Assembly (NCBI GenBank): GCA_947478955.1
Contig: CANJXJ010000004.1
Location: 1-48,675 of the forward strand
Source: Alphaproteobacteria bacterium
GTDB taxonomy: Bacteria; Pseudomonadota; Alphaproteobacteria; Paracaedibacterales; CAITNM01
Direction of reading: 5' to 3'
Length of the DNA stretch: 48,675 nucleotides
Shown here: positions 4,639-41,683 of the stretch, one piece after another
Layout: each line of letters begins with the position of its first letter
How positions within the stretch are numbered: position 1 is the first letter of the stretch
Notes under the pieces: generated by a model
Told to the model about the DNA's origin: nothing
What the model saw: only the letters and a program-made list of their open reading frames with translations
The model's database searches: none
Position numbers and translations under genes: made by a program

Positions 4639-4674
4639 TGGCCTTCATACTTCCAGAGAGAGAAAGAAAATATT

Positions 4675-13552: not shown

Positions 13553-13669
13553 GATTTGCGATGTCTTATTTTGCAGCTTTGTTTTTTAACGATTTTACCA
13601 GTTATTTTCGTATAGCAGACTTTAGGTATTCCTCAAATCCAAATTGCTAGATAAATCCCAAAATACCCC

Positions 13670-13713: not shown

Positions 13714-13728
13714 GAATTTCAAAATTCA

Positions 13729-14331: not shown

Positions 14332-14825
14332 ATTGGTTTGTTGTGTACACATTACCAGCCAAAGAAATTGTTGCAAGACAGCATCTTAAAGAGCAAGGCT
14401 ATGAGGTTTATTTGCCAATGTTTAAAAAAACGCGGCGCCATGCACGACGAGTAGATGAAGTTCTGCAGCCTTTGTTTCCAAGGTATTTATTTGTTGGGCT
14501 GGATGTGAAGATTGATTCATGGCGAGCGGTTAATGGCACCCGTGGTGTAGCGTATTTGTTATTGAATGATGGGCATCCGTTGGGAATACCTACATCTATT
14601 ATTGAAGGGTTGCAGGCCGAAGAAGATGAGCAGGGGCTTGTGCCGATTACGTGCGTAGAAACTTTTGTAAAAGGGGAAAAACTACGCATTGTGGATGGTA
14701 CTTTTAAAGATCAGATTGCTGTCTTTGAAGCAATGGATGATAAAAAGCGCGTGCAATTATTGTTGAGTTTTTTGGGCAGAGATACAAAAATATCTATCCC
14801 AGCATATGCGGTTGAAGCAGCTTAA
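14328..14825 (+). CDS. NusG/RfaH-family transcription antiterminator
   Basis: This 165-residue specialised NusG paralogue has an N-terminal NGN domain (MNWFVVYTLPAKEIVARQHL, PMFKKTRRH, LFPRYLFVGLD) and a C-terminal KOW domain (FVKGEKLRIVDGTFKDQIAV). RfaH-type proteins are recruited at ops-like pause sites and keep RNA polymerase processive through long surface-polysaccharide operons. It sits second in this one, overlapping the regulator by 4 bp. The next gap holds an ops-like core and about 29 kb of single-strand genes follow. Whether it is closest to RfaH, UpxY or TaA/LoaP types cannot be told from motifs alone. Confidence 0.88.
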   Translation: MNWFVVYTLPAKEIVARQHLKEQGYEVYLPMFKKTRRHARRVDEVLQPLFPRYLFVGLDVKIDSWRAVNGTRGVAYLLLNDGHPLGIPTSIIEGLQAEEDEQGLVPITCVETFVKGEKLRIVDGTFKDQIAVFEAMDDKKRVQLLLSFLGRDTKISIPAYAVEAA

Positions 14826-18847: not shown

Positions 18848-19673
18848 TAAAATTGCAATAGGTACCGCAAACTTCACGCAAAATTATGGAATTTTGTCGT
18901 CTGGTAGTGTCGCTGATGCCGAGTCAATTTTAAAGTTAGCAACTGACCACGGCATTGATACTTTTGATACAGCATTTGCCTACGGAAATTTTCTTAGTCT
19001 TATTAATGACAGGTCCAATTTAAAAATAATTACAAAATTTAGTGTTTTAGATAATTACGATACTATATTTGGGAAAATGAAATACGCAAAAGAATATTAT
19101 GATTTTGATGGATATTATGGGTTGCTCATTCATGATCCACAAAATTTAGAGAAAATTGATAAGGCTGAGTTGCTTGGTTTATTTGATAAATTGCACAAGA
19201 ATGGTTTGGTCAAAAAAATCGGCATATCTGTGTATGATATGAATGATCTTGAAAACTTTAGAAATATAATCGATCCAGGCCTTATCCAAATACCTTTGAA
19301 TCCCTTAAATCAGACATTCGTTAATGACAAATTTATTGACTATGTTGGGCAAAAGGGAATTGAGGTGCACGCTCGGTCCTTATTTCTTCAAGGGGTGTTG
19401 TTAGCAGATAAATTACCTAAATCTTTGAATGACTTAACGCCGATATGGAATGTATATATGGAAGCAACTAAATCTTTCAAATCAAGATTGGAAGCTTTAT
19501 TATCTTGGGCATTTACTTATCAATGGGTTAGCAAGTGGATTCTTGGAGTTTTTTGCGAGCAAGATCTCATAGAAATAATTGAAAGCAAAACCCAAGAAAT
19601 ATCCCAGTCATTTTCTTCCTTAAAAGAGATGGCACATCCTATGACTGATCCTAGAAACTGGAAAATAGCATGA
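18840..19673 (+). CDS. Aldo/keto reductase
   Basis: This 277-residue NAD(P)H-dependent oxidoreductase has the AKR barrel pattern: KIAIGTANFTQNYG at the N-terminus, catalytic Asp and Tyr in IDTFDTAFAYGN, Lys in IITKFSV, and HD in LLIHDPQN in place of the usual catalytic His region. It overlaps pseC by 8 bp and the fusion gene by 4 bp, so it belongs to the pse operon, although the core pathway has no AKR step. Similar AKRs occur in flagellin-glycan and NulO clusters, where they may make variant NulO sugars. The substrate is unknown. Confidence 0.8.
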   Translation: MLSKIAIGTANFTQNYGILSSGSVADAESILKLATDHGIDTFDTAFAYGNFLSLINDRSNLKIITKFSVLDNYDTIFGKMKYAKEYYDFDGYYGLLIHDPQNLEKIDKAELLGLFDKLHKNGLVKKIGISVYDMNDLENFRNIIDPGLIQIPLNPLNQTFVNDKFIDYVGQKGIEVHARSLFLQGVLLADKLPKSLNDLTPIWNVYMEATKSFKSRLEALLSWAFTYQWVSKWILGVFCEQDLIEIIESKTQEISQSFSSLKEMAHPMTDPRNWKIA

Positions 19674-21694
19674 AAAAAATTGCAATTATTCAAGCAAGAA
19701 TGGGAGCTTCTAGATTTCCTGGAAAGGTACTAGAGCTACTTAATAATAAACCTGTAATAAAGTGGGTAGTGGATGCAGCGCTGTTTATTCCTACAATAGA
19801 TAAAGTAGTTATAGCCACCTCTGATGCAGGTATAGATCAACCTATAGTAGACTGGTGTCATGAAAATCAAGTCTCTGTGTTTAGAGGCGATGAAAAAGAT
19901 GTATTGTCACGATTTTATGGTGCAGCAAAGGAACATAACGCTGAGATAGTAGTAAGAATAACTGCTGATTGTCCTTTGCTTGATCCAAATATTGCTGGGC
20001 AAGTGCTTTATTTTGTTTCAAGTGGAGAGGCGGATTACGCAACTAATGCTTTTCCTGCTACGTGGCCAGATGGACTAGATTGTGAGGCATTTACCTTTGC
20101 TGCCTTAGAAGAAGCTCATCAAAATGCAATCCGTCAAAGTGATCGAGAGCATGTGACCCCTTATATTCGTAATAATCAATACAAGTTTAAGATTGCAAAC
20201 GTTCCAGCAGCAATACCAGGATTACAAAAACATCGGTGGACTATTGATACTAAAGAAGATTTGGAATTTGTTGAGAAGCTGGTAAAACAAACAAAACCTT
20301 ACGCAACAACTTATGATTATTTAGAAGCGTTAAAGAACAATCCACAGCTTATACAGCCAGCGTCCAAGAGAAACGAAGGCTTTGATGCATCGTTGCAAAA
20401 TGAAACGATGGAATGTGCTAATTTTCAAAATTCTAAAGTCCTTCTGGAAAGGGCATTAAAAGCGATTCCATTAGGCTCGCAGACTTTTAGTAAATCTTAT
20501 ATTCAGTATCCAGAAAATACGTCTCCTATGTTTTTGACGCATGGACAAGGATCACGTGTGTGGGATGTTGATGGTAATGAATATATTGATTTGGTGAGTG
20601 GGTTAATGCCAAATGTACTTGGATATAATGATGTGGATATAAATCATGCAATTCAAGTGCAGTTACAAAAAGGCATATCATTCAGCCTTTCAACAGATTT
20701 AGAAATACAACTAGCTGAAAAATTATGTGAGATTATACCTAGTGCTGAAAAAGTACGATTTGCTAAAAATGGCACTGATGTAACATCAGCGGCTATCAGA
20801 CTGGCGAGAGCATATACCGGACGCGATAAAGTCATTCTTTGTGGTTATCATGGTTGGCAGGATTGGTCTATAGGCACAACCACTCGTAATAAAGGGGTGC
20901 CTAAAAGTGTATCTGAATTATCAGTTAGTGTGCCTTATAATGATTTGTCTCAATTGGAAGGCCTTTTAAAAACTGAAAATTTTGCAGCTATTATTATGGA
21001 GCCTTGCAATGCTGTAGACCCTGTTGAGGGGTACCTTCAAGGTGTAAAAGATTTATGTGAAAAACATGGATCGGTGTTTATTTTTGACGAAGTGGTGACA
21101 GGGTTTAGGTTTGCAAACGGCGGTGCGCAAGAATATTTTGGCGTGACGCCCCATCTTTCATGCTTTGGTAAAGCCATGGGAAATGGCATGCCAATTTCAG
21201 CAATTGTTGGCCAGAATCATATCATGAAAGAAATGGAAGAAATTTTCTTCTCAGGTACTTTTGGGGGCGAAACGCTTTCTTTAGCTGCATCCGTTGCAAC
21301 GATTGAAAAAATTCAAAAGAACGATGTGATTAATCACTTATGGTCTTTTGGACAAAATCTTGGCGATTCTGTAAAGCAATTGATTATCAAGTATGATTTA
21401 GAAAAAGCAATCAGCTTATGTGGCTATGCTCCCTGGAAGATTCTTCAGTTTTTAGACAACACCAGTGCTACCGCTTTTGAAATTAAGACTTTATTTATTC
21501 AAGAAATGATCAAACGCGGAATTTTGATTAATAGTTCATTTAACATTAATTTTGCACATAGTGACTTGGAGAAATTTAAAATATTAAAAGCAATAGAAGA
21601 AGTTTTTAATATTCTGGCAGATTGCTTGATAAATGAAAAAGTTGGGAAACACTTGAGAAGTCCAGCTATAAAACCGTTGTTTAAAGTGAGGTAA
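19670..21694 (+). CDS. Fusion: SpsF/PseF-like cytidylyltransferase + class-III aminotransferase
   Basis: Residues 1-~240 form a nucleotidyltransferase of the CMP-sugar/SpsF type (IIQARMGASRFPGKVL, RITADCPLLDP, HRWTIDTKEDL). Residues ~275-674 form a class-III PLP aminotransferase like glutamate-1-semialdehyde aminomutase, with FDEVVTGFRF and the PLP lysine Lys501 in CFGKAMGNG. A linker of ~35 residues joins them. No other PseF candidate lies in the pse group, so the first domain probably makes CMP-pseudaminic acid. The second domain may move an amino group on the NulO or on another sugar. Both domains look complete, and the frame is continuous. Domain calls are firm, substrates inferred. Confidence 0.82.
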   Translation: MKKIAIIQARMGASRFPGKVLELLNNKPVIKWVVDAALFIPTIDKVVIATSDAGIDQPIVDWCHENQVSVFRGDEKDVLSRFYGAAKEHNAEIVVRITADCPLLDPNIAGQVLYFVSSGEADYATNAFPATWPDGLDCEAFTFAALEEAHQNAIRQSDREHVTPYIRNNQYKFKIANVPAAIPGLQKHRWTIDTKEDLEFVEKLVKQTKPYATTYDYLEALKNNPQLIQPASKRNEGFDASLQNETMECANFQNSKVLLERALKAIPLGSQTFSKSYIQYPENTSPMFLTHGQGSRVWDVDGNEYIDLVSGLMPNVLGYNDVDINHAIQVQLQKGISFSLSTDLEIQLAEKLCEIIPSAEKVRFAKNGTDVTSAAIRLARAYTGRDKVILCGYHGWQDWSIGTTTRNKGVPKSVSELSVSVPYNDLSQLEGLLKTENFAAIIMEPCNAVDPVEGYLQGVKDLCEKHGSVFIFDEVVTGFRFANGGAQEYFGVTPHLSCFGKAMGNGMPISAIVGQNHIMKEMEEIFFSGTFGGETLSLAASVATIEKIQKNDVINHLWSFGQNLGDSVKQLIIKYDLEKAISLCGYAPWKILQFLDNTSATAFEIKTLFIQEMIKRGILINSSFNINFAHSDLEKFKILKAIEEVFNILADCLINEKVGKHLRSPAIKPLFKVR

Positions 21695-26238: not shown

Positions 26239-27240
26239 ATGACTAAGCCCTACATTATTGCCGAACTTTCGGGCAACCATAATGGTGATATTAACCGTGC
26301 GTTTAAGCTTATTGAGGCTGCTAAAGAAGCGGGGGTAGATGCTGTAAAATTGCAAACCTATACAGCAGATACAATAACGATCGATTGCGATAATGAAGAT
26401 TTTCTTATTAAAGGCGGCCTATGGGATGGCTGTAAGCTTTATGATTTATATAAAGAAGCGCATACACCCTGGGAATGGCATGAAGCTTTATTTGCCAAAG
26501 GAAAAGAACTCGATATTACTGTTTTTTCCTCACCATTTGATGAAACAGCGGTTGATTTGCTGAAGAGCCTAAATGCTCCTCTTTATAAAATTGCTTCTCC
26601 TGAATTGGTGCATCATCCACTGATAGCTTATATTGCGTCTTTAAATAAGCCAATGATCATGTCAACAGGCATGGCAACAGTAGAAGAAATTACCGAAGCT
26701 GTTGAAGTCGCTTTTACAAATGGGTGCGCAGATTTAACTTTATTACATTGTGTCAGTGAATATCCTGCTCCCGTAGAGCACTGCAATTTAGCAACGATGC
26801 TTGATTTAAAGCAAAAGTTTACTAAGTGCAAAATTGGTTTATCCGATCATACATTGGGTACAACGGTTGCGATTGCTGCTGTAGCGCTTGGTGCGACCGT
26901 TATTGAAAAACATATTACCTTAGATCGCTCTGAAGGCGGTGTGGATGCTGCATTTTCATTAGAACCTGGTGAATTAAAGCATCTTTGTGAGGCAACACGA
27001 GATGCTGCATTAGCGATAGGCCAAATTAATTATCAGCGTAGTGATTCGGAACGAAAAAATAGGGTTTATAGGCGAAGTATTTATGCTGTAAAAGATATCG
27101 CAGAAGGTGAGGTTTTTACAAAAAAGAATATTAAAATTATTCGGCCAGGGTATGGAATAGCACCAAAGTTTTATGAAAAGTTAATGGGGACCAAGTCGTC
27201 TGCTTCATATCATTTTGGCGATCCATTAAAGGTAATTTAG
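26239..27240 (+). CDS. pseI: Pseudaminic acid synthase
   Basis: PseI condenses 2,4-diacetamido-2,4,6-trideoxy-L-altrose with phosphoenolpyruvate to make pseudaminic acid. The 333-residue NeuB-family protein has the N-terminal barrel (YIIAELSGNHNGDINRAFKL, AGVDAVKLQTYTADT, KIGLSDHTLGTTVAIAA) and a C-terminal antifreeze/SAF domain from ~275 (RRSIYAVKDIAEGEVF). The GLWDGCKLYDLYKEAHTPWEWH stretch is characteristic of PseI over sialic acid or legionaminic acid synthases. AAGGA lies just before the ATG. PseB, C, G and H-like neighbours complete the pathway. Confidence 0.94.
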   Translation: MTKPYIIAELSGNHNGDINRAFKLIEAAKEAGVDAVKLQTYTADTITIDCDNEDFLIKGGLWDGCKLYDLYKEAHTPWEWHEALFAKGKELDITVFSSPFDETAVDLLKSLNAPLYKIASPELVHHPLIAYIASLNKPMIMSTGMATVEEITEAVEVAFTNGCADLTLLHCVSEYPAPVEHCNLATMLDLKQKFTKCKIGLSDHTLGTTVAIAAVALGATVIEKHITLDRSEGGVDAAFSLEPGELKHLCEATRDAALAIGQINYQRSDSERKNRVYRRSIYAVKDIAEGEVFTKKNIKIIRPGYGIAPKFYEKLMGTKSSASYHFGDPLKVI

Positions 27241-28222: not shown

Positions 28223-28942
28223 ATGATTTCAGCCAAAATTGTTGAAGATTTCTATGAGAATGCCTATAAAGAGTTCGGATTTGGAGCACAGAGAAAATAC
28301 CCAAATGAAGAATTTTGTAGATTCATGGGACGGAATTTTTTCCATAAATCTCCTGAAGAACGAAAAAGAATTAAAATTCTAGAAACAGGCTGCGGCTCTG
28401 GTGCTAATCTTTGGATGATTGCAAAGGAAGGGTTTGATGCCCATGGGATTGATTTGTCGTCGGAAGCTATTTTTCTGGCGGAAAAAATGCTTGAAAGCTA
28501 TGGAGTTGCAGCTGAGCTATCGGCACAAAACATGTGTGATTTAAACTTTCAAAATAATAATTTTGACGCAGTGGTTGATGTTTTTTCTTCTTATTGTTTT
28601 TCAAAGAAGGAACATCTTTTGTATCTGCAAGAAATTAAAAGAATTCTAAAACCAGGCGGTTTGTTTTTTTCGTACTTTCCTGCAAAGCAATCAGACGCTT
28701 ATTTATTTCCAAAAGATTCACGCTTTATAGACTCAGATACATTAGAGTCAATAACACGCGAAAATTCACCTTTTTGTGGACAAAATTATCCATTTCGCTT
28801 TATTCACTCGTGTGAATATGAACAGGGATTGAAGAATTTAGATTTTGACATTCAATATTCAGAAATGATTAGCAGGACTTACCATAAACGCCAAGAAGTT
28901 TTTAGTTTTGTTGTGATTGAGGCTAAAAAGGGATCCATTTGA
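28223..28942 (+). CDS. Class I SAM-dependent methyltransferase
   Basis: I chose the ATG at 28223 (239 residues, MISAKIVEDFYENAYKEFG), 15 bp after the previous stop with an AAGAGAAAA purine run before it. An in-frame ATG at 28193 lies within the preceding gene. SAM motif I is ILETGCGSGANLWMIA, followed by HGIDLSSEAI, NNNFDAVVDVFSSYCF and IKRILKPGGLFFSYFP. It belongs to the Methyltransf_11/25 group. The last bases overlap the region just ahead of the LIC12162-like gene. The glycan target is unknown. Confidence 0.8.
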   Translation: MISAKIVEDFYENAYKEFGFGAQRKYPNEEFCRFMGRNFFHKSPEERKRIKILETGCGSGANLWMIAKEGFDAHGIDLSSEAIFLAEKMLESYGVAAELSAQNMCDLNFQNNNFDAVVDVFSSYCFSKKEHLLYLQEIKRILKPGGLFFSYFPAKQSDAYLFPKDSRFIDSDTLESITRENSPFCGQNYPFRFIHSCEYEQGLKNLDFDIQYSEMISRTYHKRQEVFSFVVIEAKKGSI

Positions 28943-28947
28943 TATTG

Positions 28948-30603
28948 ATGAAAAAATGTTATTTGACAGAGGTTGATAAGAATTATTCTGCTGATGAAGA
29001 TTTGGTATTAGGGCTATGGTGCTTTAAGGATATTGCAGATGCTAGACGTGCTAAATGCATAGAAGCATATGAAGGTGAAGATCTGAATGCTTTACATAAG
29101 CAACTTTATGAGCTCGGTATTCATTTATTAATTGAAGATGCAGATTTGCTTGAAGGTGTAGAGAGAGAAATATTTTTACTTAAAAATCAGTGTGACTATT
29201 TTTATTTTGTTTTTTTTGGTTTTTATTTGTTTCGGCTCATAAAAAAAACTCTAAATATGTATCCCATGCAAGATGTAGCGTTTGAAAAAGTTAGTCGTCC
29301 AAAAAAAATAGCACATCATTCAAGCTATTTCCAACCCGCTTACTTTGGTTATCTAGCGATGCTGATAATAGAAGTGATATTGAAAGATGAACATATCAAT
29401 TGGTTTGCCTCGGAAAGGGAATCGGGCAAGGCATTTAAGGAGAATGTCCCTAATATTCCTAAGCAAAAATTATCAACTAAATTTAAAAATAAATTAAATT
29501 ATTTTTCAGGCATTAGCGGTATATATTTTATTCCTGGCTTATTGTTGAGTGTTATTTATATGTCTAGGAATTTTGCGCAACGAAGAAAACCAAATTACTT
29601 CACAAAACAACCGATTTTAACCTTAAATACGGAAATAATGCAATTTATTAAAATTTTTAGAGCTTTATTTTCTGAAAAAACAATATTCAAAAAAGATTAC
29701 CAGCATAGTATTGATAAAATAAAAAAGCTTTACATCGGTAATTCAGGGTATTTAGTGTATGGAGATAATGTGCATGATAGGGTATACAAAAATTATTTTG
29801 CTGGAAAAAGTAACTTTTGTGTATACCAACATGGTGCATCCTATGGAATGATAAATTATTTGGTTTCCCATGAAATAGAATTCAACTGCCCTTCCTTTAT
29901 TAGTTGGGGAAGGGAAGTGCATTCAAATGTGCCGCGTAAAAATATCATTAATAATTTGCCGAGCCCCCAGTTGTATAAGCTAAAAGATTTATATGCTTTT
30001 AATAATCAAAAAAAAATAATTTGGGTAACGTGTTCGATTGATAGATGCGGAGAAGGGCTAATTTTTCTGGCTGCATCTCAGCACATGGATTATGTGGAAA
30101 AAAAAGAAAAGCTGTTAGATTTTTTAGATAAAGAATTATTAAAAGATCTTATATACAAACCTTTTCCTACCAAGATTGATGCTGGACATTTTGCAGATGA
30201 GTTTTTAAATAAAATCCCAAAAAATCAACAAGTATTAAATAAAATTAATTTGAATACATTAATATTGAGTTCTAAATTTTCCATACTTGACTACTTGGGG
30301 ACCTCTTTTTACGAAGCTATGAGTATGAATGCCCCAGTTGTGTTGTGTTTATTCCATTCGACAACTTCTATTCTGACTGATTCTGCTAGAGAGCTGCTAA
30401 AAGAATTTGAAAAATTGGGAGTGATGCATACTGATCCCGAAAAAGCTGCTGTTTTTATCAATTCTCTAAACACTAGAGATGTGCAAGAGTGGTGGCAAGA
30501 TAAAGCAATTCAAGATCTAAGAAAACAATTTCTTGAAATGTACGCAAACAATAAGCCATATTTTTGGCCTTGGCTAAAAGCTATTTTAAAGAGAGAAATA
30601 TAA
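28948..30603 (+). CDS. LIC12162-like putative sugar transferase
   Basis: The ~551-residue protein begins MKKCYLTEVDKNYSADEDLV-LGLWC, which resembles the start of LIC12162-family putative transferases from Leptospira-type surface loci. The C-terminal half looks like a GT-B fold: VYQHGASYGMINYLVSHEIE, and near the end LDYLGTSFYEAMSMNAPVVL, a donor-binding-like motif. I chose the ATG at 28948 over TTG 28939, which overlaps the previous stop. A hydrophobic stretch near residues 80-100 may touch the membrane. It may transfer one of the unusual acidic sugars made here; biochemical function of the family is unproven. Confidence 0.65.
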   Translation: MKKCYLTEVDKNYSADEDLVLGLWCFKDIADARRAKCIEAYEGEDLNALHKQLYELGIHLLIEDADLLEGVEREIFLLKNQCDYFYFVFFGFYLFRLIKKTLNMYPMQDVAFEKVSRPKKIAHHSSYFQPAYFGYLAMLIIEVILKDEHINWFASERESGKAFKENVPNIPKQKLSTKFKNKLNYFSGISGIYFIPGLLLSVIYMSRNFAQRRKPNYFTKQPILTLNTEIMQFIKIFRALFSEKTIFKKDYQHSIDKIKKLYIGNSGYLVYGDNVHDRVYKNYFAGKSNFCVYQHGASYGMINYLVSHEIEFNCPSFISWGREVHSNVPRKNIINNLPSPQLYKLKDLYAFNNQKKIIWVTCSIDRCGEGLIFLAASQHMDYVEKKEKLLDFLDKELLKDLIYKPFPTKIDAGHFADEFLNKIPKNQQVLNKINLNTLILSSKFSILDYLGTSFYEAMSMNAPVVLCLFHSTTSILTDSARELLKEFEKLGVMHTDPEKAAVFINSLNTRDVQEWWQDKAIQDLRKQFLEMYANNKPYFWPWLKAILKREI

Positions 30604-31311
30604 ATGACTATTTTTGCAGCATGGCAACAGTTAGCTTCTCCTCAGGTTACTATTGCGATGGCAAGCATGGGGTTTGATTGGATAGTTGTCGATCTTGAGC
30701 ATTCATCAATTACTACTCAAGAAGCTGAAGCAATTTTCATAGCTGCTGAACGGCAGAATGCTAAGCCATTTGTGCGATTACCATCGGCAGATCCTTATCT
30801 TGCTAGACGAATATTAGATGCAGGAGCTGCTGGACTATTTGTGCCTGTCGTGGAATCGAGAAAAACATTTGATGATTTTGCTGAGCACTGTTTTTTTCCG
30901 CCAAAAGGAAGAAGAGGCTTAGGGTTAACACGTGCAAATTCTTGGGGAAAAAATCTAAAGGACTATTTTGAGGTGTTCAAGCCAACTATCATTGCGCAAA
31001 TTGAAACCAAAAAAGGTGCTGAAAACATAGCAGATATTGTTTCTTCGGCATTTTTAGATGGCATAATGATTGGTCCATATGACTTGTCAGCAACCCTTGG
31101 AACGCCAGGTCAATTTGATGATAAAGTTTTTAAAAATATTTGTGCTTCTGTGAGAGTGGCAGCAAGGAATAATAAAAAAATGATTGGTTATCACCAAGTA
31201 GAGCCAAACTCACAAATACTACAAAAGCGTATTGAAGAGCGATATGATTTCATTGCTTATGGAACAGATATTGTTGCTTTGAGGTACTCCTTGGAAGGAA
31301 TAAGGAAATGA
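30604..31311 (+). CDS. HpcH/HpaI-type pyruvate aldolase
   Basis: The 235-residue class II aldolase has WIVVDLEHSSITTQEAEAI, FVRLPSADPYLARRILDAGA, GLFVPVVES, IIAQIETKKGAENI and GIMIGPYDLSATLG, the metal- and pyruvate-binding motifs of the HpaI family. Such enzymes reversibly join pyruvate to an aldehyde, giving a 2-keto-3-deoxy acid. It is the first gene of a cassette whose next gene is a KdsB-like CMP transferase, so I infer that the product is a 2-keto-3-deoxy sugar acid. The start overlaps the previous stop (TAAATG) and the stop overlaps the next start. Confidence 0.88.
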   Translation: MTIFAAWQQLASPQVTIAMASMGFDWIVVDLEHSSITTQEAEAIFIAAERQNAKPFVRLPSADPYLARRILDAGAAGLFVPVVESRKTFDDFAEHCFFPPKGRRGLGLTRANSWGKNLKDYFEVFKPTIIAQIETKKGAENIADIVSSAFLDGIMIGPYDLSATLGTPGQFDDKVFKNICASVRVAARNNKKMIGYHQVEPNSQILQKRIEERYDFIAYGTDIVALRYSLEGIRK

Positions 31312-32066
31312 AAAAGGTATGTATTATACCAGCACGTATGGGGTCATCTAGGTTTCCCGGTAAGCCACTTGCGAAAGCTCTAGGTATCCCAGTTATTATA
31401 CATATTGCAAAGCGCTGCCTTCTTGCAAAAAATCTTGATTATGTGGGAGTAGCTACTTGTGATGAAGAAATAAAAATAGTGTGTGAGCAGTATAATATTC
31501 CGGTGCTTATGACTAGTGCAAGCCATGAGCGTTGTACGGATAGAGTCAGTGAAGCAATAGAAAAGCTTGACTTCAGCCTTAATGATGACGATTTCGTGCT
31601 GATGGTTCAAGGGGATGAGATTTTAGTCACTCCGGACATGATTAATTCTGTAGTTAATGATTACGAAAAAAACTGTTCTCCTGTTGTTAATTTGTTATCG
31701 AGAATTTATTCTGCGCAAGATCATGAAGACCCTAATGTGGTGAAAGTGGTTTCTGCCCCCGACCAACGTGCTCTATATTTTTCTAGAGCCCCCATACCTT
31801 CAACTTATAGGGATAAAGAAGCTTTGATTTATCAACAAACAGGCCTTATAGGTTTTTCTAAGGGATTTTTAAAAGATTTCAGTAATTTACCACAAACACC
31901 TTTGGAAAAAGTTGAGTCAATCGATATGCTGCGTGTTCTTGAGCATGGTTTGCCTTTACGAGTTGTGTATACAGATACAGAAACTGTCGCTATTGATGTG
32001 CCGTCTGATTTAGTGCGTGCTACAAAAATTCTTGAGAGCGATTGTTTTGTCAAAAAATATGCCTAA
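31308..32066 (+). CDS. KdsB-like CMP-ulosonic acid cytidylyltransferase
   Basis: The 252-residue protein has IIPARMGSSRFPGKPLAKALG at the N-terminus, TDRVSEAI in the usual HxSGTDRxxE region (here HERCTDR, with Cys for Gly), VQGDEILV and YFSRAPIP. Length matches KdsB (~248). KdsB activates Kdo with CTP for LPS. Because it lies in an aldolase-dehydrogenase-phosphatase cassette with no KdsA or WaaA nearby, I infer that it activates a cassette-made ulosonic acid, not housekeeping Kdo. It overlaps both neighbours by a few bases. The divergent GTDR region fits a changed substrate. Confidence 0.8.
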   Translation: MKKVCIIPARMGSSRFPGKPLAKALGIPVIIHIAKRCLLAKNLDYVGVATCDEEIKIVCEQYNIPVLMTSASHERCTDRVSEAIEKLDFSLNDDDFVLMVQGDEILVTPDMINSVVNDYEKNCSPVVNLLSRIYSAQDHEDPNVVKVVSAPDQRALYFSRAPIPSTYRDKEALIYQQTGLIGFSKGFLKDFSNLPQTPLEKVESIDMLRVLEHGLPLRVVYTDTETVAIDVPSDLVRATKILESDCFVKKYA

Positions 32067-33018
32067 TATTTTGGTTTCTAACATCGGTTTTGGTCTGGCG
32101 TCACCAGAATCATTAACAAAATTACAGAGAGTAGCGGATGTTACTTTAAATGAAGCAGCCATTCGCTTTACTGAGCGGGATTTTATTGAACGAATTCAAA
32201 GTGCCGATATTTTGATTGCCGGCACAGAAAAAATTACACGACTAGTTGTCGAGTCTGCCACAAATTTAAAGCTTATTGCACGGGTTGGGGTTGGGGTTGA
32301 TAATGTTGATTTGGATTGCGCCCAAGAAAATAACATCAGTATTTGTTATACTCCGGATGCTCCATCAGAAGCAGTGCCAGAATTTACACTTTCACTTATG
32401 CTTAATCTAATAAAAGGCATATCTGTCTCTGATAGAAAAATGCATAAAGGAATTTGGCACAAACCAATGGGCAGAATGTTATCTTCGATGAAAATTGGCA
32501 TTGTGGGAGCTGGAAAAATTGGTTCTAAAGTTATTAATCTTATTAAATCTATATCGCCTAAAACGGAAATTCTTTTTTATGATCCCTACTTAGAATCCTT
32601 AGAGCACGCTATAAAATGTGACATTGAACAGCTCTTTCGTGAATGTGATATTGTATCCTTGCACATACCGTTGAAGGATCAAACCAAGGGATTAGTAAAT
32701 GATAGCCTTTTAAATGTTATGAAAAAAGAAAGCTATCTTATTAATACATCTCGAGGAGGGGTTGTAGATGAGATTGCGTTATATCACTCTCTTCGGAACA
32801 ATCACTTAGCGGGTGCAGCGATGGATGTTTTTGAAATTGAACCCTATAGTGGGCCATTAACTGAGTTGGATAATTGCTTAACTACATCTCATATGGGCTC
32901 TTTAACTAGGGAAGTAAGGGCCTTGATGGAAGAACAAATTGTAGAAGATGTTATGCGTTTTATGAGCGGCCAACCTTTTATAAGGCAGCTACATGGATTT
33001 AATTTCAGTGGATACTAA
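32059..33018 (+). CDS. D-2-hydroxyacid dehydrogenase (SerA-like)
   Basis: The ATG at 32059 gives 319 residues starting MPNILVSNIGFG, overlapping the cytidylyltransferase stop; the TTG at 32017 would read back into that gene. The NAD-binding loop is IGIVGAGKIGSKV (~residue 145). The catalytic set is Arg in NTSRGGVVDE, Glu in FEIEP and His in TTSHMGSLT. Members convert 2-hydroxy acids and 2-keto acids. In this cassette it could supply or trim the aldolase substrate, or modify the 2-keto acid product. Role inferred from position. Confidence 0.85.
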   Translation: MPNILVSNIGFGLASPESLTKLQRVADVTLNEAAIRFTERDFIERIQSADILIAGTEKITRLVVESATNLKLIARVGVGVDNVDLDCAQENNISICYTPDAPSEAVPEFTLSLMLNLIKGISVSDRKMHKGIWHKPMGRMLSSMKIGIVGAGKIGSKVINLIKSISPKTEILFYDPYLESLEHAIKCDIEQLFRECDIVSLHIPLKDQTKGLVNDSLLNVMKKESYLINTSRGGVVDEIALYHSLRNNHLAGAAMDVFEIEPYSGPLTELDNCLTTSHMGSLTREVRALMEEQIVEDVMRFMSGQPFIRQLHGFNFSGY

Positions 33019-33019
33019 A

Positions 33020-33916
33020 ATGAAAAAAGCAATTATATTTGGTGGTTCGGGATTTGTGGGAAGTCATGTGGCTGATGCTCTAACAAATGCTGGCATCGAA
33101 GCAACTATTTTTGACATTGCTCCATCTGAATTTAAAAATGATAAGCAGGCTTTTATACAAGGCACTATTCTTGATCAAGATCTGGTTAATAAGGCGATTG
33201 AAGGAAAAGATTACGTTTATCATTTAGCAGGCCAAGCAGATATAGGTATTAGTTTTGAAGCCCCTAAAGAAACGCTTTCTTTAAACATACAAGGAACCAT
33301 TAATATTCTTGATGCTTGCCGTAAGTATGATATCGAGCGATTTATTTTTGCATCAACTATTTATGTTTACTCTGATCTAGGTGGATTTTACAGGGCTAGT
33401 AAGCAGGCTTGTGAAATTATAATTGAGGAATACCAAAAGAACTTTGGGATTGATTATACAATTTTAAGATATGGCTCTTTGTATGGTCCCAGGGCTGATG
33501 AAAAAAACCTTATTCACCGAATACTAAAACAGGCGATCTTAGAAAAAACTATTCAAATTGGTTATGGTAGCGAAGAAAAAAGAGATTATATTCATGTTTA
33601 TGATGCTGCTCGCATGAGCGTTGATATATTATCAAAAAAATATAAAAATGCCCATGTAATGTTAACGGGGCATCAGTGTATTAGTCGCGGGGAGTTATTT
33701 GAGACCATTAATGAAATGTTAGGTGGGGATATTAAAATAGAGGAAACAGTCCAGCCAGAAAATGATCGTCTTCATGGGCATTACAAATTTACTCCGTATG
33801 TTTTTAAACCACAAATTTCAAAAAAACTTGTGAGTAATGAGTATCTCGAGTTTGGCCAGGGGATTTTGAATTGCATGGAAGAAATCCACGAAAAATATGT
33901 TACCCAAAAATCTTGA
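33020..33916 (+). CDS. NAD-dependent sugar epimerase/dehydratase
   Basis: The ATG at 33020 gives 298 residues beginning MKKAIIFGGSGFVGSHV; the TTG at 32993 lies in the preceding gene. It is an extended short-chain dehydrogenase with GGSGFVGSHVADAL at the N-terminus, DIAPSEF marking NAD specificity, and the active site in FASTIYVYSDLGGFYRASKQ (Thr, Tyr, Lys). The region after GFYRASK is shorter than in GalE-type enzymes. It may work on a nucleotide sugar that feeds the cassette. It overlaps the HAD gene by 20 bp. Confidence 0.82.
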   Translation: MKKAIIFGGSGFVGSHVADALTNAGIEATIFDIAPSEFKNDKQAFIQGTILDQDLVNKAIEGKDYVYHLAGQADIGISFEAPKETLSLNIQGTINILDACRKYDIERFIFASTIYVYSDLGGFYRASKQACEIIIEEYQKNFGIDYTILRYGSLYGPRADEKNLIHRILKQAILEKTIQIGYGSEEKRDYIHVYDAARMSVDILSKKYKNAHVMLTGHQCISRGELFETINEMLGGDIKIEETVQPENDRLHGHYKFTPYVFKPQISKKLVSNEYLEFGQGILNCMEEIHEKYVTQKS

Positions 33917-34538
33917 TGCTCTCTTTTTAGATTTTGATGGAGTAGTTGTTGAATCAGCTAATATCAAAACGCAAGCTTTTTACGAATTATATTTACCATA
34001 TGGAACTGAAGTAGCGGATAATGCAAAAAATTACCACCTACAATACCAAGGCGTTAATCGTTACAAAAAATTTGAAGAGATACATAAGTTATTTTTGAAT
34101 CGAGCTTGTTTAGAGGATGAAAAAGAAAAGCTTTCAACAAAATTCTCAGAGATTGTTTTTGAAAAAATTATAGAAGCTCCCTTAGTTGAAGGAGTTTTAG
34201 GTTTTTTGAGAGAAATGCAAAAGCAAGTTATTCCTATTTTTTTACTCTCAGCAACACCTCATGAAGAGTTGCTCGGTATATGTAAAGAAAGAAAAATCTT
34301 GAGTTATTTTAAAGGTGCCTACGGAGCGCCCTATGAGAAGAGCGCAATGGGCAAAAAAATTATAAGTGATTATCATTTTAATAAAGAGAGTATAATTTTT
34401 ATTGGTGATAGCTTAAGTGATTTTAAAGCAGCATCAACAATTGACATCACTTTTGTGGGAAGAGTTCCCGATGGTGAAGAAAATCCCTTTGATTCTTCTA
34501 TCAAGACGATCACAAATTTTCTAGAATTAATACAATGA
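33897..34538 (+). CDS. HAD-superfamily phosphatase
   Basis: The 213-residue protein has the four HAD motifs: FLDFDGVVVESANIK (nucleophile Asp), LLSATPHEELL, a Lys in YEKSAMGKK, and FIGDSLSDFKAAS. A cap region lies between motifs I and II, as in phosphoglycolate/beta-phosphoglucomutase-like members. By analogy with KdsC, it could dephosphorylate a sugar phosphate or ulosonic acid phosphate in this cassette. It lacks KdsC's compact length (~180, no cap), so it is not a KdsC orthologue. Confidence 0.82.
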   Translation: MLPKNLDALFLDFDGVVVESANIKTQAFYELYLPYGTEVADNAKNYHLQYQGVNRYKKFEEIHKLFLNRACLEDEKEKLSTKFSEIVFEKIIEAPLVEGVLGFLREMQKQVIPIFLLSATPHEELLGICKERKILSYFKGAYGAPYEKSAMGKKIISDYHFNKESIIFIGDSLSDFKAASTIDITFVGRVPDGEENPFDSSIKTITNFLELIQ

Positions 34539-35140
34539 AAGATTGTCAATTTCAAACAGTGCAACAAGCTGGATTATTTCTAAAACAACACATTGAACAA
34601 GATTTGCAGTACCAAATCAAGTTACAGGATCATGCCCTTCTAATTTTACCAGGTGGAAATAGTATCAAGTTATTTTTTCCATATCTTATTGTACTAGATG
34701 TGCCATGGGATAAGATAACCATCGGTTTAAGCGATGAGCGCTGCGTACCCTTTGATCATGAAATGAGCAATGAGAGGCAGCTAAGAGAATGCTTTTTGGA
34801 TTTGCTACCCACTTATAATTATTGCCCTTTAAATAAAAATTTGATCGCTAAAATTCAGGAATTTCCACCAATTACCATTTTAAGTATGGGAGAAGATGGG
34901 CATGTGGCATCTCTTTTCCCTCAGGAGTATGACGAGTGGAAGGACAGTGGGATGGGTATTTATAAAACAACAAAACAGAAAATCAATCGAGAGAGCCTTT
35001 CTGAGGTGGCTTTAGTTCTTTCTTCGAATATTTATATATTGTGTACTGGTAATGAGAAAAATGGTTTCTTTGATAGGGGTAAATTGCACTCCTTACCATT
35101 TAAAACTATTTTTGAAAAATCAATGTTTATTAGGTGTTAA
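34535..35140 (+). CDS. 6-phosphogluconolactonase/GlcN6P-isomerase-like protein
   Basis: The 201-residue protein has the family's LPGGNSIKLFF, GLSDERCVP and MGEDGHVASLFP motifs. It is shorter than DevB/Pgl (~230). In this context it may open a lactone or isomerise a sugar phosphate for the aldolase route, not serve the pentose phosphate pathway. It overlaps the HAD gene by 4 bp, and its stop overlaps the next GTG start, so it is embedded in the operon. Confidence 0.82.
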   Translation: MKDCQFQTVQQAGLFLKQHIEQDLQYQIKLQDHALLILPGGNSIKLFFPYLIVLDVPWDKITIGLSDERCVPFDHEMSNERQLRECFLDLLPTYNYCPLNKNLIAKIQEFPPITILSMGEDGHVASLFPQEYDEWKDSGMGIYKTTKQKINRESLSEVALVLSSNIYILCTGNEKNGFFDRGKLHSLPFKTIFEKSMFIRC

Positions 35141-37270: not shown

Positions 37271-38191
37271 ATGAAACTTCTCATCACAGGTGTTGCAGGT
37301 TTTATTGGCGCAAAAGTTGCTGAAGCTGCCCTTGATAATGGTTATGTTGTTGTCGGTGTCGATGATCTCTCTCAAGGGTATGCGGGTAACGTTCCTAGCG
37401 GCTGTGAGTTTATCAAGGGTAATTTGATTGATCCAAATTTTGTGAATAGCTTACCAAAAGATTGCGAGGTAATTCTACATCTTGCAGGTCAATCTTCAGG
37501 TGAAATAAGTTTTGATAACCCCATATCGGATCTTGAAAAAAATACAATTTCCACTCTTAACCTTATTAAATATGGCATTAGCAATAGAATTAAAAAAATG
37601 GTTTACGCAAGCTCCATGTCGGTTTATGGAGCAACGGAAGATAGACCAATTGATGAGTCATATGTATGCGCGCCTCTTTCATGTTACGGGGTTGGAAAGC
37701 TAGCTGCCGAAAATTACTTAAGAATTTATCAAGAGCAAATACCCCACACAATTTTTCGAATGTTTAATGTTTATGGCCCGGGTCAAGATATGAACAACCT
37801 TCGCCAAGGAATGGTGAGTATTTACTTGGCGCACATTCTAAAAAATGGACACATCCCCGTTAAAGGAGGGGTGACAAGATTTAGAGATTTTATTTACATA
37901 GATGATGTTGTGAATATTTGGTTAAAATCTATTGAGAATAATGACCTTAATAATCAGTGCTTTAATTTGGGTACTGGAGTAAAAACAACAGTTTTAGAGC
38001 TTTTGCAAAAAATTCAAGGCATATTGCCAGATTTTACTTGGGAAGAAGTTCAAAACACACTTGGCGATCAATTTGGAATTTATGCAGATACAAAAAAAAT
38101 TAAAAACTTGCTCGTGAATTACTCATTCACTTCGCTTGATGCGGGGTTATTAAAGTTTATTGAATGGCTGAAAAAAAATCAAAATCTTTAG
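37271..38191 (+). CDS. NAD-dependent epimerase/dehydratase (GalE-like)
   Basis: The 306-residue protein has the Rossmann loop GVAGFIGAKVAEAAL, and the active-site line ASSMSVYGATEDRPIDES, then CYGVGKLAAENY (Ser, Tyr, Lys). GPGQDMNNLRQGMVSIYLA and GGVTRFRDFIYIDDV follow UDP-glucose 4-epimerase-type sequences. It likely epimerises or dehydrates a nucleotide sugar. It overlaps the next gene by 28 bp, so the next gene's start is uncertain. Confidence 0.85.
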   Translation: MKLLITGVAGFIGAKVAEAALDNGYVVVGVDDLSQGYAGNVPSGCEFIKGNLIDPNFVNSLPKDCEVILHLAGQSSGEISFDNPISDLEKNTISTLNLIKYGISNRIKKMVYASSMSVYGATEDRPIDESYVCAPLSCYGVGKLAAENYLRIYQEQIPHTIFRMFNVYGPGQDMNNLRQGMVSIYLAHILKNGHIPVKGGVTRFRDFIYIDDVVNIWLKSIENNDLNNQCFNLGTGVKTTVLELLQKIQGILPDFTWEEVQNTLGDQFGIYADTKKIKNLLVNYSFTSLDAGLLKFIEWLKKNQNL

Positions 38192-39849
38192 TTCATTTAC
38201 TTCAGAATCCTTTAGAAATCAAGAATGACGTCCCTATTTACTATACAGGGATTAAGAGATTTTCTAACGGTCAGTCGCTGAATGTAAATGATATAGATAC
38301 CAACACATTAAATGAAATTAATGAGTTTGTAGTGAATTTAGATGCATTTTTTGGCAGTAAACTTTTTACCTTAACGAGTGCTTTAAGCGCTAACCGATAT
38401 TTATCACCGCTCTATGACAATTTTCTTAAGGGGTGGTGCGTATTGAAAATATTAAGAGAGCATCCTGAAATCTACTTATTGGTAGATAATTATAATGAAC
38501 AATGTTTATGGGAAGATTTTTTTTTAGCAAATAATGTACAGGTTATTTCAAAAAGCAAGAGTGTTTTATTTTCTCGAATTAAATCTTTTATGAGAGAAAT
38601 CGTATGTGTTTTGAAAGAGTATTTTTGGGTAAGTTGTACTCAAAAAAAGAAGCAACCTTTTTCAAAAATTATTTTTATGGAGTGGATCAATGAAAAAAAT
38701 AAATCTTTTGAGCAAATTATAAACCACTCAGCATATTTCGGAAAATTTTTGAAAGATATGCATCAAAAAAAGCCGGTTTCTATACTGGGAAATATCTTAA
38801 ATGGGCATCAAGACTTTAAGGAAATCATTAAGTCAGATTGCAATTTTATCAAAGAACAAACTTCCTTAGGGGATATCGCTTGGTCTTTCTTGAAAAGCTT
38901 TAAACTGTTAGCTTCAATTAAAGAGAAAATTATCTTTCAAAATTGTGATTTTACACCAATTGTAACTCAGGCCTTAAAAAAAGATTTTTGGGATGCTTCC
39001 TATTTAAAGCATCTTTTATTTTATAAAGCCTTCAAAAAAATCTGTTTAAATGCTTCAAACCACGTAACAATTATTTATCCTTTCGAAAATCAGCCATGGG
39101 AAAAGGCTTTAATTATGGCCACTTCTGAGAAGGCAAATAAGATCAAGCTATTTGCTTATCAGTTTTTTCCAATTCCTGAAAATTTTTTGATTCATTGTTT
39201 TTCTAAGAAAGCAAAAAATTGTGCAATGTTTCCTAATAAAATTTTAACAAGTGATATGCATTCTAATCATCTTTTACAGAAACAAGGCATTTCTACGCTT
39301 AAGTTAGGTAGTATGCGTTATAGTCATTTGCTTAATTATCAGAAGGATTCTGCGATAAGAAAAAAAATATTATGTTCTCTTTTTTTGGATGAGATTGAAA
39401 TTATTTCTATGGTCAAAAAAATGGTAAAAATTTCAAAGCATGTTGAGTATGATTTTATCATTAATTACCATCCTTCTTTATCCGCTGACATAATTGGAAA
39501 AATAAAAAATGTAGCTAAAGATTCTAAAAATATTACGTTGTCTGATATGAAGGTTGTAGATCTTTTAGATGATGTATTTTTGCTTATTTACAACTCATCG
39601 TCCGTTTTTTTAGAAGCAGCCTTACGTGGAATTGCTGTTTTGTATTTGCCTTGTGATGAGATTGTTAATCTTGATCGATTCCAGGGCTGTGGAGGAGTGA
39701 TTGAAAGTGAGGAAGAGACGATTTCTTTTATTCAAAAGCTGAGGGTTGATAAGAATTTTTATGAAGCTTATGCTTCAGAAGTTTATAAAAAATCAAATCA
39801 AATGATTATTCCCTATCATAAACAAGTTATAGAAAGGCTAGATTTATGA
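38164..39849 (+). CDS. Large surface-carbohydrate protein, possible GT-B glycosyltransferase
   Basis: The 561-residue protein is not clearly recognised. The C-terminal half has a GT-B-like pattern: IIYPFENQPWEKALIMAT, FDFIINYHPSL-like strands and SSSVFLEAALRGIAVLYLPCD near the end, similar to surface-polysaccharide and LIC13510-type proteins. No signal peptide is seen. Its start lies 28 bp inside the previous gene, so the first residues are tentative. Position directly ahead of a CDP-sugar synthesis set suggests that it transfers one of the locus sugars; this is inferred. Confidence 0.55.
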   Translation: MAEKKSKSLVHLLQNPLEIKNDVPIYYTGIKRFSNGQSLNVNDIDTNTLNEINEFVVNLDAFFGSKLFTLTSALSANRYLSPLYDNFLKGWCVLKILREHPEIYLLVDNYNEQCLWEDFFLANNVQVISKSKSVLFSRIKSFMREIVCVLKEYFWVSCTQKKKQPFSKIIFMEWINEKNKSFEQIINHSAYFGKFLKDMHQKKPVSILGNILNGHQDFKEIIKSDCNFIKEQTSLGDIAWSFLKSFKLLASIKEKIIFQNCDFTPIVTQALKKDFWDASYLKHLLFYKAFKKICLNASNHVTIIYPFENQPWEKALIMATSEKANKIKLFAYQFFPIPENFLIHCFSKKAKNCAMFPNKILTSDMHSNHLLQKQGISTLKLGSMRYSHLLNYQKDSAIRKKILCSLFLDEIEIISMVKKMVKISKHVEYDFIINYHPSLSADIIGKIKNVAKDSKNITLSDMKVVDLLDDVFLLIYNSSSVFLEAALRGIAVLYLPCDEIVNLDRFQGCGGVIESEEETISFIQKLRVDKNFYEAYASEVYKKSNQMIIPYHKQVIERLDL

Positions 39850-40625
39850 AAACCGTTATTCTTGCTGGTGGCTATGGTACGCGTATTCGTGATGTAACGC
39901 ACGATCTTCCAAAGCCTATGATTCCTGTGGGAAATTATCCTGTTCTTTGGCATATTATGAAGCAATATGCTCATTATGAAATGAATGAATTTGTTCTGTG
40001 CCTTGGGTATAAAAGTGAAGTCATCAAGGATTATTTTCTAAATTATCAAAAACGTCAAAATGACTTTACTCTAGATTTAAAAAATCAAATCATTACAGAC
40101 CATACGAATCGCGCAATCGATGATTGGAAAATCACCTTTGCAGAAACAGGACTAAATTCTTTAACCGGTGGACGTGTCTTTAGGGTAAAACAATATATTG
40201 AAAAAGATGAATATTTTATGTTGACCTATGGAGATGGAGTCTCAAACATTGATATAAAAAAACTTATAGAATTTCACAAATCACACGGTAAATTAATGAC
40301 AGTAACTGGAGCTCATCCACCAGGAAGATTTGGTGAGCTTGATCTAAATGAGAATCAAGTGATTGGATTTAATGAAAAACCTCAAGCGACTGAAGGTTGG
40401 ATTTCGGCAGGTTTTTTTGTATGTAGTCGTAAGGTGCTGGATTATCTTACCCCCAATGAAGACTTAATTTTTGAAAAAGAACCTATTGAAAATATTGTAA
40501 AGAGTGGTCAAATGATGGTTTATAAACATCACGGATTTTGGCATCCCATGGATACATCTCGTGACTACCAGCTTTTAAATCAGTTATGGGAACAGAAAAA
40601 CGCACCTTGGAAAATCTGGCAATGA
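39846..40625 (+). CDS. rfbF: Glucose-1-phosphate cytidylyltransferase
   Basis: RfbF makes CDP-glucose from CTP and glucose-1-phosphate, the entry to CDP-dideoxy and branched sugars. The 259-residue protein has VILAGGYGTRIRDVTHDLPKP at the N-terminus, LTYGDGVSNID at the metal site and EPIENIVKSGQM. Length matches RfbF (~257). rfbG follows with a 4-bp ATGA overlap. Identity is clear from motifs and pairing. Confidence 0.95.
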   Translation: MKTVILAGGYGTRIRDVTHDLPKPMIPVGNYPVLWHIMKQYAHYEMNEFVLCLGYKSEVIKDYFLNYQKRQNDFTLDLKNQIITDHTNRAIDDWKITFAETGLNSLTGGRVFRVKQYIEKDEYFMLTYGDGVSNIDIKKLIEFHKSHGKLMTVTGAHPPGRFGELDLNENQVIGFNEKPQATEGWISAGFFVCSRKVLDYLTPNEDLIFEKEPIENIVKSGQMMVYKHHGFWHPMDTSRDYQLLNQLWEQKNAPWKIWQ

Positions 40626-41683
40626 ATATTCAAGAATTTTACAAAAATAAAAAAGTCTTTATCACAGGACATACAGGTTTCAAAGGAGCTTGGCTTGCTT
40701 ATTGGCTTAAAGAGCTTGGCGCAGATGTTACGGGTTATGCCTTGCAGCCAGAATATGAAAGATCATTATTTGAACTCTTAAATCTTGATCAGAAACTTCA
40801 ACATCATGTAGGAGATGTGCGTGATTTGGAAGCTCTCTCGAATGCTATAAATCAAGCTAAGCCTGACATCATTTTTCACTTGGCAGCACAAGCTATTGTG
40901 AGAAAATCTTATGATGATCCTCTGTTAACATTCAGTACCAATGTGATGGGATCTTTAAATCTTTTGGAGTCAGTCAGGCATTGTGACTCTGTTAGGTCAT
41001 TAGTCTATATCACTTCAGATAAATGTTATTGGAATAGTGAGTGGGTCTGGGGCTATAGAGAAACAGATGCTTTAGGAGGTCCCGATCCATATAGCGCATC
41101 AAAGGCTTGCGCAGAGCATGTTTTTAAAAGTTATTTTTTATCTTATTTCAAAGAACGTAAAATTTTTGGGTGCGGATCAACAAGGGCAGGGAATGTAATC
41201 GGAGGGGGCGATCGTGCTAAAGATCGCATTGTACCGGACATTATTAAGGCTGTAGAGAATCAAGCTTCTGTTGTTTTAAGAAATCCTCAATCAACACGTC
41301 CTTGGCAACATGTTTTGGATCCTCTGCACGGCTATATGTGTTTAGGAATGCATCTTTATAATAATCCTGATCGATATAATGGGGAAGCATGGAACTTTGG
41401 GCCATCAAACCAATCTATTAAGACGGTCCATGAGCTTACAAAAATACTCGCGAGTTTATGGAGTAATGCTTCTATTGAAATTCCATCTCTTCAAAATCAG
41501 CCTTATGAATCAAACCTTCTGCATTTATCCATAGATAAGGCACAAAGTTTGTTGAAGTGGGAGCCAAAGTGGCACTTTAATCAGGCAGTTATGAAAACTG
41601 GAGAATGGTATAAACGTGTGCAAAATGGAGAAGAAGCTTCAAAAGTAACGAGCGAGCAGATAATGGATTTTATGAATGCCTGA
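40622..41683 (+). CDS. rfbG: CDP-glucose 4,6-dehydratase
   Basis: RfbG converts CDP-glucose to CDP-4-keto-6-deoxyglucose. The ATG at 40622 gives 353 residues (MNIQEFYKNKKVFITGHTGF), the usual length; an upstream ATG at 40586 sits inside rfbF. The NAD loop is GHTGFKGAWLAYWL; the active site is ITSDKCYWN with YSASKACAEHVF; RPWQHVLDP is conserved. Both RfbF and RfbG are complete. The next gene is a DegT aminotransferase and not an RfbH-type dehydrase. Confidence 0.95.
   Translation: MNIQEFYKNKKVFITGHTGFKGAWLAYWLKELGADVTGYALQPEYERSLFELLNLDQKLQHHVGDVRDLEALSNAINQAKPDIIFHLAAQAIVRKSYDDPLLTFSTNVMGSLNLLESVRHCDSVRSLVYITSDKCYWNSEWVWGYRETDALGGPDPYSASKACAEHVFKSYFLSYFKERKIFGCGSTRAGNVIGGGDRAKDRIVPDIIKAVENQASVVLRNPQSTRPWQHVLDPLHGYMCLGMHLYNNPDRYNGEAWNFGPSNQSIKTVHELTKILASLWSNASIEIPSLQNQPYESNLLHLSIDKAQSLLKWEPKWHFNQAVMKTGEWYKRVQNGEEASKVTSEQIMDFMNA

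Follow-up and report, generated by a model that had tools for sequence, protein, structure and literature searches.

A candidate aldolase-dependent gene cassette for a CMP-activated ulosonic acid in an alphaproteobacterial glycan cluster

The window analysed here, a whole stretch of 48,675 nucleotides from an alphaproteobacterium of the order Paracaedibacterales (contig CANJXJ010000004.1), carries within a glycan cluster a set of six genes that combines an aldolase with a transferase for cytidine monophosphate (CMP). The set spans positions 30604-35140 of the + strand as six open reading frames (ORFs), each overlapping the next one:

30604..31311, + strand: HpcH/HpaI-type aldolase, 235 residues (PF03328, 101 bits; cut-off 25)
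31308..32066, + strand: KdsB-like CMP transferase, 252 residues (PF02348, 154.1 bits; cut-off 22.6)
32059..33018, + strand: D-2-hydroxyacid dehydrogenase, phosphoglycerate dehydrogenase-like, 319 residues from its ATG (PF02826, 162.8 bits; PF00389, 80.9 bits)
32993..33916, + strand: NAD-dependent extended short-chain dehydrogenase/reductase (SDR) of the epimerase/dehydratase family, with YRASK (PF01370, 153 bits)
33897..34538, + strand: haloacid dehalogenase-type (HAD) phosphatase, 213 residues (PF13419, 46.7 bits; cut-off 23.8)
34535..35140, + strand: Pgl-type protein of the 6-phosphogluconolactonase family (PF01182, 96.8 bits; cut-off 27)

Pfam and NCBIfam bear out the families that an earlier, sequence-only reading had assigned to all six genes, the coordinates are exact, and every neighbouring pair overlaps as that reading had stated. 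The dehydrogenase frame offers an upstream alternative start (GTG at 32017) to the ATG at 32059; the protein's nearest solved relatives are phosphoglycerate dehydrogenases, while it scores under the cut-off of all 21 NCBIfam models that it matched and falls short of the phosphoglycerate dehydrogenase model TIGR01327 (223.9 bits against 454). The HAD phosphatase contains DFD and GDSLSD, and the Pgl-type protein SDERCVP and GEDGHVASLFP. Of 12 Pgl copies from loci of this kind, 9 contain DGHxASLF and 10 contain DERxV, elements which we take to be a 6-phosphogluconolactonase signature; the window protein reaches 96.1 bits against a cut-off of 124.45 for TIGR01198, and we propose it as a putative lactonase.

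The six genes are one variant of a conserved cassette. The set does recur in other genomes, where the sequence-only reading had suggested looking for it, and the exact six-role combination proved to be only one of its forms, found at 8 of 80 related loci and in addition at L033, L035 and L070 (L numbers denote loci and G numbers genomes). The 80 loci (L076-L155), some of them on short contigs, are the best of at least 577 relatives returned from genome contigs by an 11-row aldolase alignment, from which L066 was excluded for an in-frame stop; viral contigs yielded a further 29. As controls we used 20 neighbourhoods of other PF03328 aldolases, scoring 170-190 bits in a scan of 398 genomes of the phylum, and applied the same role models to them. 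A CMP transferase was called at 73 of the 80 loci and the dehydrogenase at 56, against 0 of 20 controls for each. The remaining roles comprise the SDR (41 loci), HAD phosphatase (36), Gfo/Idh oxidoreductase (27), SIS protein (21), PF04199 hydrolase (16), a 3-dehydroquinate synthase (DHQS)-like protein (13), inositol monophosphatase (IMPase, 10) and Pgl (8), none of which was called in any of the 20 control neighbourhoods; a separate short-chain dehydrogenase type occurs at 23 of 80 loci and in 3 of 20 controls. The aldolase lies a median 79 nucleotides from the nearest CMP transferase (72 loci), with both genes on the same strand in 70 of those 72.

The linkage also holds when approached from the other gene. 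A model of ten locus KdsBs was run over the 398 genomes, with only the best few candidates per genome scored, and its eight top genomes (302-418 bits; next 264) are the eight top aldolase genomes (at least 241 bits; next 206), three of them (G000, G375 and G438) having contributed rows to the KdsB model; the two genes lie no more than 4 kb apart on one contig in seven of the eight and on separate contigs in G423. The aldolase scan itself, with a four-aldolase model over the same 398 genomes, gave nine proteins above 200 bits besides that of the window and 190 or less for the rest: cassette partners accompany the seven that reach at least 241 bits, none was found beside the two at 201 and 206 bits (G336 and G446; L073 and L074), and tblastn found none at L075 (G098, 190 bits), a locus outside the 20 controls. 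A class-level search with the aldolase alone had been less discriminating, matching 118 of 289 genomes as a mix of other PF03328 aldolases and a few true relatives; a view of 1.5 kb on either side of the hits was too narrow for most neighbours. The aldolase alone likewise matched 692 plasmid and 2 phage records; the top plasmid match, from Acuticoccus and the only one opened of 30 listed plasmid rows, carries the cassette. On this plasmid and at L033 the cassette partners are present with a NeuA-type in place of the KdsB-type transferase, and the two transferase types substitute for each other between loci more generally.

The modules upstream in the presumed route are interchangeable. SDR and Gfo/Idh genes occur at 41 and 27 of the 80 loci, respectively, never together, with neither at 12 (Fisher p=2.5e-12; the module p-values ignore relatedness). 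The HAD phosphatase follows the SDR (34 of 41 SDR loci, 0 of 27 Gfo/Idh loci, its other two loci having neither), and the SIS protein is found at 18 of 27 Gfo/Idh loci versus 3 of 41 SDR loci. Gfo/Idh loci divide further into those with IMPase (10) and those with the DHQS-like gene (13), none having both and 4 having neither (p=1.5e-4); the DHQS-like gene is always accompanied by the short-chain dehydrogenase and Gfo/Idh (13 of 13 loci, those other than L099 assigned by model). The L099 protein (13248-14339) exceeds the cut-off of TIGR04425, an AroB-related putative sugar phosphate phospholyase (cyclizing), with 445.7 bits against 400; at L099 and the 12 further loci this AroB-like enzyme might catalyse a carbocycle-forming step. 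The SIS protein tested is closest to phosphoheptose isomerase; for the Gfo protein tested, the closest are inositol dehydrogenase and glucose-fructose oxidoreductase. Only 7 of 41 SDR and 4 of 27 Gfo/Idh loci lack an enzyme expected to release phosphate (HAD, IMPase or phospholyase), and since most front ends thus bring one, we infer that the route starts from a sugar phosphate.

Pgl and PF04199-type genes were never found together in 89 loci. Their exclusion is significant among the 29 SDR loci of the 58 well-flanked loci (Pgl 10, PF04199 9, both 0; p=0.011) and in 47 SDR loci that take in nine earlier ones (p=0.044), but not in the 41 SDR loci alone (p=0.083). Both families include hydrolases, and because the two genes exclude each other we would guess at a shared lactone-opening step. 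On the aldolase tree the SDR labels need 24 changes, 16 of these imposed by well-supported branches, and the Gfo/Idh labels 18, with 12 so imposed; after shuffling the averages are 33 and 25, and 0 of 500 shuffles came as low as the real labels. The labels are therefore more clustered than chance would have them, and front ends appear to swap often but not freely. Closely related aldolases can stand behind either front end, as in the sister pair L144 (SDR) and L148 (Gfo/Idh), and the nearest relatives of the window's aldolase in the tree (L076, L077) have the Gfo/Idh type. By eye, SDR and Gfo/Idh loci each span eleven named phyla, four of them common to both. Together, this conserved, tightly linked gene set with its mutually exclusive modules argues for one pathway, as the sequence-only reading had held.

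Several individual loci deserve mention. At L139 (8082-9842) a 586-residue protein joins a NeuA-type CMP transferase domain to the cassette dehydrogenase, with a separate KdsB-like gene alongside, and the fusion hints that the dehydrogenase and the activation step are connected. Four actinobacterial loci (L080, L086, L089 and L110) combine the aldolase with Gfo/Idh and IMPase, with no CMP transferase called; all four have a gene that clusters with iron alcohol dehydrogenase (member L105 tested), and the first three also a gene that is SpsF-like by eye. At L066 (8086-8820) the aldolase with the in-frame stop lies beside CMP transferase, Gfo/Idh, SIS, IMPase and dehydrogenase genes.

The cassette aldolase belongs to the same family as HpaI, GarL and YfaU, and D30, E32, H33, R58, E134 and D160 are invariant in 11 aldolases of such loci, D30, H33, R58, E134 and D160 presumably being the HpaI catalytic set. 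It differs from the named enzymes in forming a subgroup of its own with glycan-cluster neighbours: the window protein stays below the equivalog cut-offs of TIGR02311 (123.2 against 368.8), TIGR03239 (109.8 against 406.75), NF007849 (109 against 393) and NF007521 (92.4 against 441), and six control aldolases group together outside the locus aldolases (support 100/99). The exception is L035 (G040), which has all six roles, yet its aldolase adjoins the controls in the tree (99/89) and its CMP transferase lacks the motif described below, a possible case of independent assembly.

Kdo (3-deoxy-D-manno-octulosonic acid) and sialic, pseudaminic and legionaminic acids, all of them CMP-activated, are made via synthases that depend on phosphoenolpyruvate (PEP). 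The sequence-only reading had placed the aldolase where such a synthase would be, and the wider sample supports it: a search that combined a NeuB model with the KdsA of the host and the PseI of the window found no NeuB/KdsA-like ORF at 55 of the 73 CMP-transferase loci. Across all 80 loci a PEP-dependent synthase of either type is present at 22, where it may serve a separate nonulosonate, and a KdsA-like gene lies near one control (L198). We take the window's own PseI to belong to a separate PEP-dependent nonulosonate set, for pseudaminic acid (Pse), in the same cluster.

The KdsB-like transferase is divergent in a characteristic manner. At two positions of the HxxxTDR motif, all 31 ordinary KdsBs examined, the host's included, show [SN]G, against 0 of 74 locus KdsBs (the window's together with those of cassette and viral loci, second copies included); arginine occupies the first position in 70 of 74 and R[AC] the pair in 69, the five others being L035, the second copy of L068, L101, L171 and L172. 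The altered motif HERCTDR that the sequence-only reading had singled out is present in the window, as a feature typical of KdsB-like proteins of such loci instead of a quirk of this gene. In 94% of bootstrap trees of the KdsBs a single branch sets the ordinary copies apart (support 92/62), and the window copy groups with four cassette-type copies (100/100), not with ordinary KdsBs.

In light of this gene content and its conservation, the exclusion of modules and the divergence of the CMP transferase, we propose, with a probability of roughly 0.7, that the six genes constitute a dedicated aldolase-dependent pathway to a CMP-activated 2-ulosonic acid for a surface glycan, an acid distinct from both Kdo and the NeuB-made nonulosonates; the reactions, their order and the product are what we infer. 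The front end would supply a sugar-derived aldehyde, with the SDR, the Pgl-type lactonase and the dehydrogenase making or trimming the substrate: most likely, the SDR would oxidise a sugar or sugar phosphate to a lactone, Pgl would open the lactone, and the dehydrogenase would act on the 2-hydroxy acid so formed. The HpaI-type aldolase, in place of KdsA or NeuB, would build the carbon skeleton from this aldehyde and a 2-keto acid, most likely pyruvate; the HAD phosphatase would take off the phosphate, as KdsC does in the Kdo route; and the KdsB-like enzyme, as the proposed last step, would couple the acid to CMP for the neighbouring transferase, glycosyl transfer possibly falling to the LIC12162- or LIC13510-type proteins described below. 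Such a cassette matches the Kdo pathway (KdsD, KdsA, KdsC, KdsB) in its order of roles, from sugar-phosphate supplier through carbon-carbon bond maker and HAD phosphatase to KdsB-family transferase, but differs in having an aldolase for the PEP-dependent KdsA, extra oxidoreductases, a lactonase-type gene and the changed KdsB motif. It likewise recalls the nonulosonic acid pathways (NeuB/PseI with NeuA/PseF) in the predicted CMP-activated 2-keto acid, in its surface-glycan setting and, in some cassettes, in a NeuA-type transferase, whereas most of its loci with a CMP transferase lack the NeuB-like synthase.

The weakest step of this scheme is the dehydrogenase, which may instead supply the 2-keto acid, in which case the product would be 3-hydroxylated. 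Such a 3-hydroxy ulosonic acid would arise if the front end, comprising SDR or Gfo/Idh, lactonase and dehydrogenase, converted a sugar phosphate to a 2-ketoaldonate, or the dehydrogenase and phosphatase yielded hydroxypyruvate, as aldolase donor instead of pyruvate. The dehydrogenase is phosphoglycerate dehydrogenase-like, and a solved HpaI-family relative, 6r62, was deposited as a hydroxyketoacid aldolase; moreover, among SDR loci a lactonase-type gene (Pgl or PF04199) accompanies the dehydrogenase at 19 of 32, whereas the 9 that lack the dehydrogenase have none (p=0.0017, weakening to p=0.11 in well-flanked SDR loci). The frequent absence of the dehydrogenase from cassette loci speaks against this variant, which in part presumes that HpaI-family aldolases use hydroxypyruvate and which we consider unlikely on balance.

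A second, aldolase-based route to ordinary Kdo for lipid A or capsule seems more doubtful still. The window's CMP transferase does pass NF009905 (267.6 against 255), NF003952 (253.6 against 193) and TIGR00466 (160.3 against 155.2), its nearest solved relatives are KdsBs, and 12 of the 74 locus rows lie on the ordinary side of the midpoint, nearer to ordinary KdsBs than the window copy is in the tree as drawn, where several long branches are unsure; it remains under the cut-offs of NF003948 (177.9 against 281) and NF003950 (187.1 against 234). The host, however, already has one KdsA (416.8 bits), and another KdsB, of the ordinary kind, lies elsewhere in its genome and scores 191.9 bits where the cassette copy reaches 160; together with the changed motif this makes Kdo, as judged from sequence, an unlikely product. 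Nor does the exchange for a NeuA-type transferase fit Kdo, and some loci are labelled Bacillota, Actinomycetota, Chloroflexota or Woesearchaeota (mostly metagenome-assembled genomes), groups that to our knowledge as a rule make no Kdo. Least credible of all is that a catabolic aldolase and housekeeping-like enzymes merely gathered here with no shared pathway, as glycan clusters do collect genes and the window's serves several sugars, given that many phyla carry the set, with alternatives that exclude one another, and that all 20 controls lack it.

A number of points weigh against a dedicated pathway as we draw it. The dehydrogenase is missing from 24 of the 80 loci, an SDR or Gfo/Idh front end from 12 and a called CMP transferase from 7; Pgl is confined to 8; a NeuB-like synthase lies near 18 of the 73 CMP-transferase loci and also in the window; and the lactonase-dehydrogenase association loses its significance in well-flanked loci. 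The sample itself calls for caution: the 80 loci were taken as the nearest of at least 577 by similarity instead of at random, near-copies (SAR86, Nitrosomonas, Ilumatobacteraceae, Verrucomicrobia and Desulfovibrio) count at full weight, the role models were built from clustered neighbour ORFs of the very loci that they tally, with hand-set thresholds, and at the edge of the set the weakest locus kept, L085 (229 bits), has no partner, next to a best control of 228 bits.

The cassette is real, conserved and modular, and it is apparently undescribed in the open-access literature searched: there we found no description of such a cluster and no homologous cluster assigned to a known sugar, the finding by which the sequence-only reading could have been overturned, with subscription journals mostly outside that coverage. 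We tentatively extend the proposal, at somewhat less than even odds, to a general route in which an aldolase and CMP-transferase core is served by at least three swappable front ends and the products are ulosonic acids that belong to neither the Kdo nor the nonulosonate family. The route would operate both in lineages that have lipopolysaccharide and in lineages that lack it, and some virus-collection contigs would carry a related NeuA-aldolase-GT29 set. The front ends would be an SDR with HAD phosphatase, often with a Pgl or PF04199 lactonase; Gfo/Idh with a GmhA-like isomerase and IMPase; and Gfo/Idh with isomerase, short-chain dehydrogenase and AroB-like phospholyase. If true, a whole class of acidic sugars on cell surfaces would have been missed, concealed in part by annotation as KdsB. 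Producers, whose glycans are open to direct analysis, could then be recognised in sequence by R[AC] at the KdsB motif beside an aldolase of the cassette subgroup, and the swappable front ends would offer a natural experiment on the chemistry.

The virus-collection loci (IMG/VR contigs, whose viral label is that of the collection) bear on this extension. A GT29-like gene, GT29 being a sialyltransferase family, is present in 15 of the 29, all 15 with a NeuA-type CMP transferase and an HpaI-family aldolase; the gene at L162 (8554-12577) matches PF00777 (47.7 bits; cut-off 23) and those of the 14 other loci were assigned by clustering. L162, L164 and L184 also have the dehydrogenase and SDR, and a SIS-like gene occurs in 12 of the 29. 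The combination fits a CMP-ulosonate. The viral aldolases are split, with 12 of 28 at 250-317 bits and 16 at 150-182, below the controls (189-228), and all 15 GT29-type loci fall among these low-scoring 16, on a more distant branch, so that the GT29-type loci lend the proposal weak support.

Around the six genes, the window's glycan cluster appears to serve several sugars, with the following features:

26239..27240, + strand: PseI, pseudaminic acid synthase (TIGR03586, 505.6 bits; cut-off 340.25)
28939..30603, + strand: LIC12162-family transferase, candidate CMP-sugar user (TIGR04331, 158.9 bits; under the cut-off of 225)
38164..39849, + strand: LIC13510-family protein, GT-B-like, second candidate transferase (TIGR04326, 53.3 bits; under the cut-off of 250)

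PseI sits 3.4 kb upstream of the six-gene set, and the cluster also encodes a PseG-like protein (143.6 bits, under the cut-off of 153.55). The LIC12162-family gene ends at 30603, immediately 5' of the aldolase ATG, and genes that cluster with the LIC12162 or LIC13510 type occur at 18 of 80 loci and, for each type, in 0 of 20 controls. With a poor structure model for the former protein (predicted local distance difference test, pLDDT, 46) and a generic GT-B-like match for the latter, the sugar donor is unreadable from either; the LIC13510-family model (pLDDT 64) weakly matches UDP-N-acetylglucosamine 2-epimerases and GT-B glycosyltransferases (E around 1e-7, query TM-score around 0.4). Further downstream, positions 39846-41683 hold what we take, from their translations, to be CDP-glucose-type genes.

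A single PF03328 match occurs in the whole host genome (1.64 Mb, 69 contigs). The cassette aldolase had no match at 1e-20 in the one same-genus and two same-order genomes searched, so the cassette looks accessory. Elsewhere in the window, a class-III aminotransferase (PF00202) and a CMP-transferase domain (PF02348) are fused at positions 19670-21694, and at 71-5183 a large protein bearing a DUF637 (possible hemagglutinin) domain precedes two SMI1/KNR4-type genes, of which the second scores under the Pfam cut-off, an arrangement looking like that of a secreted toxin with its immunity genes.

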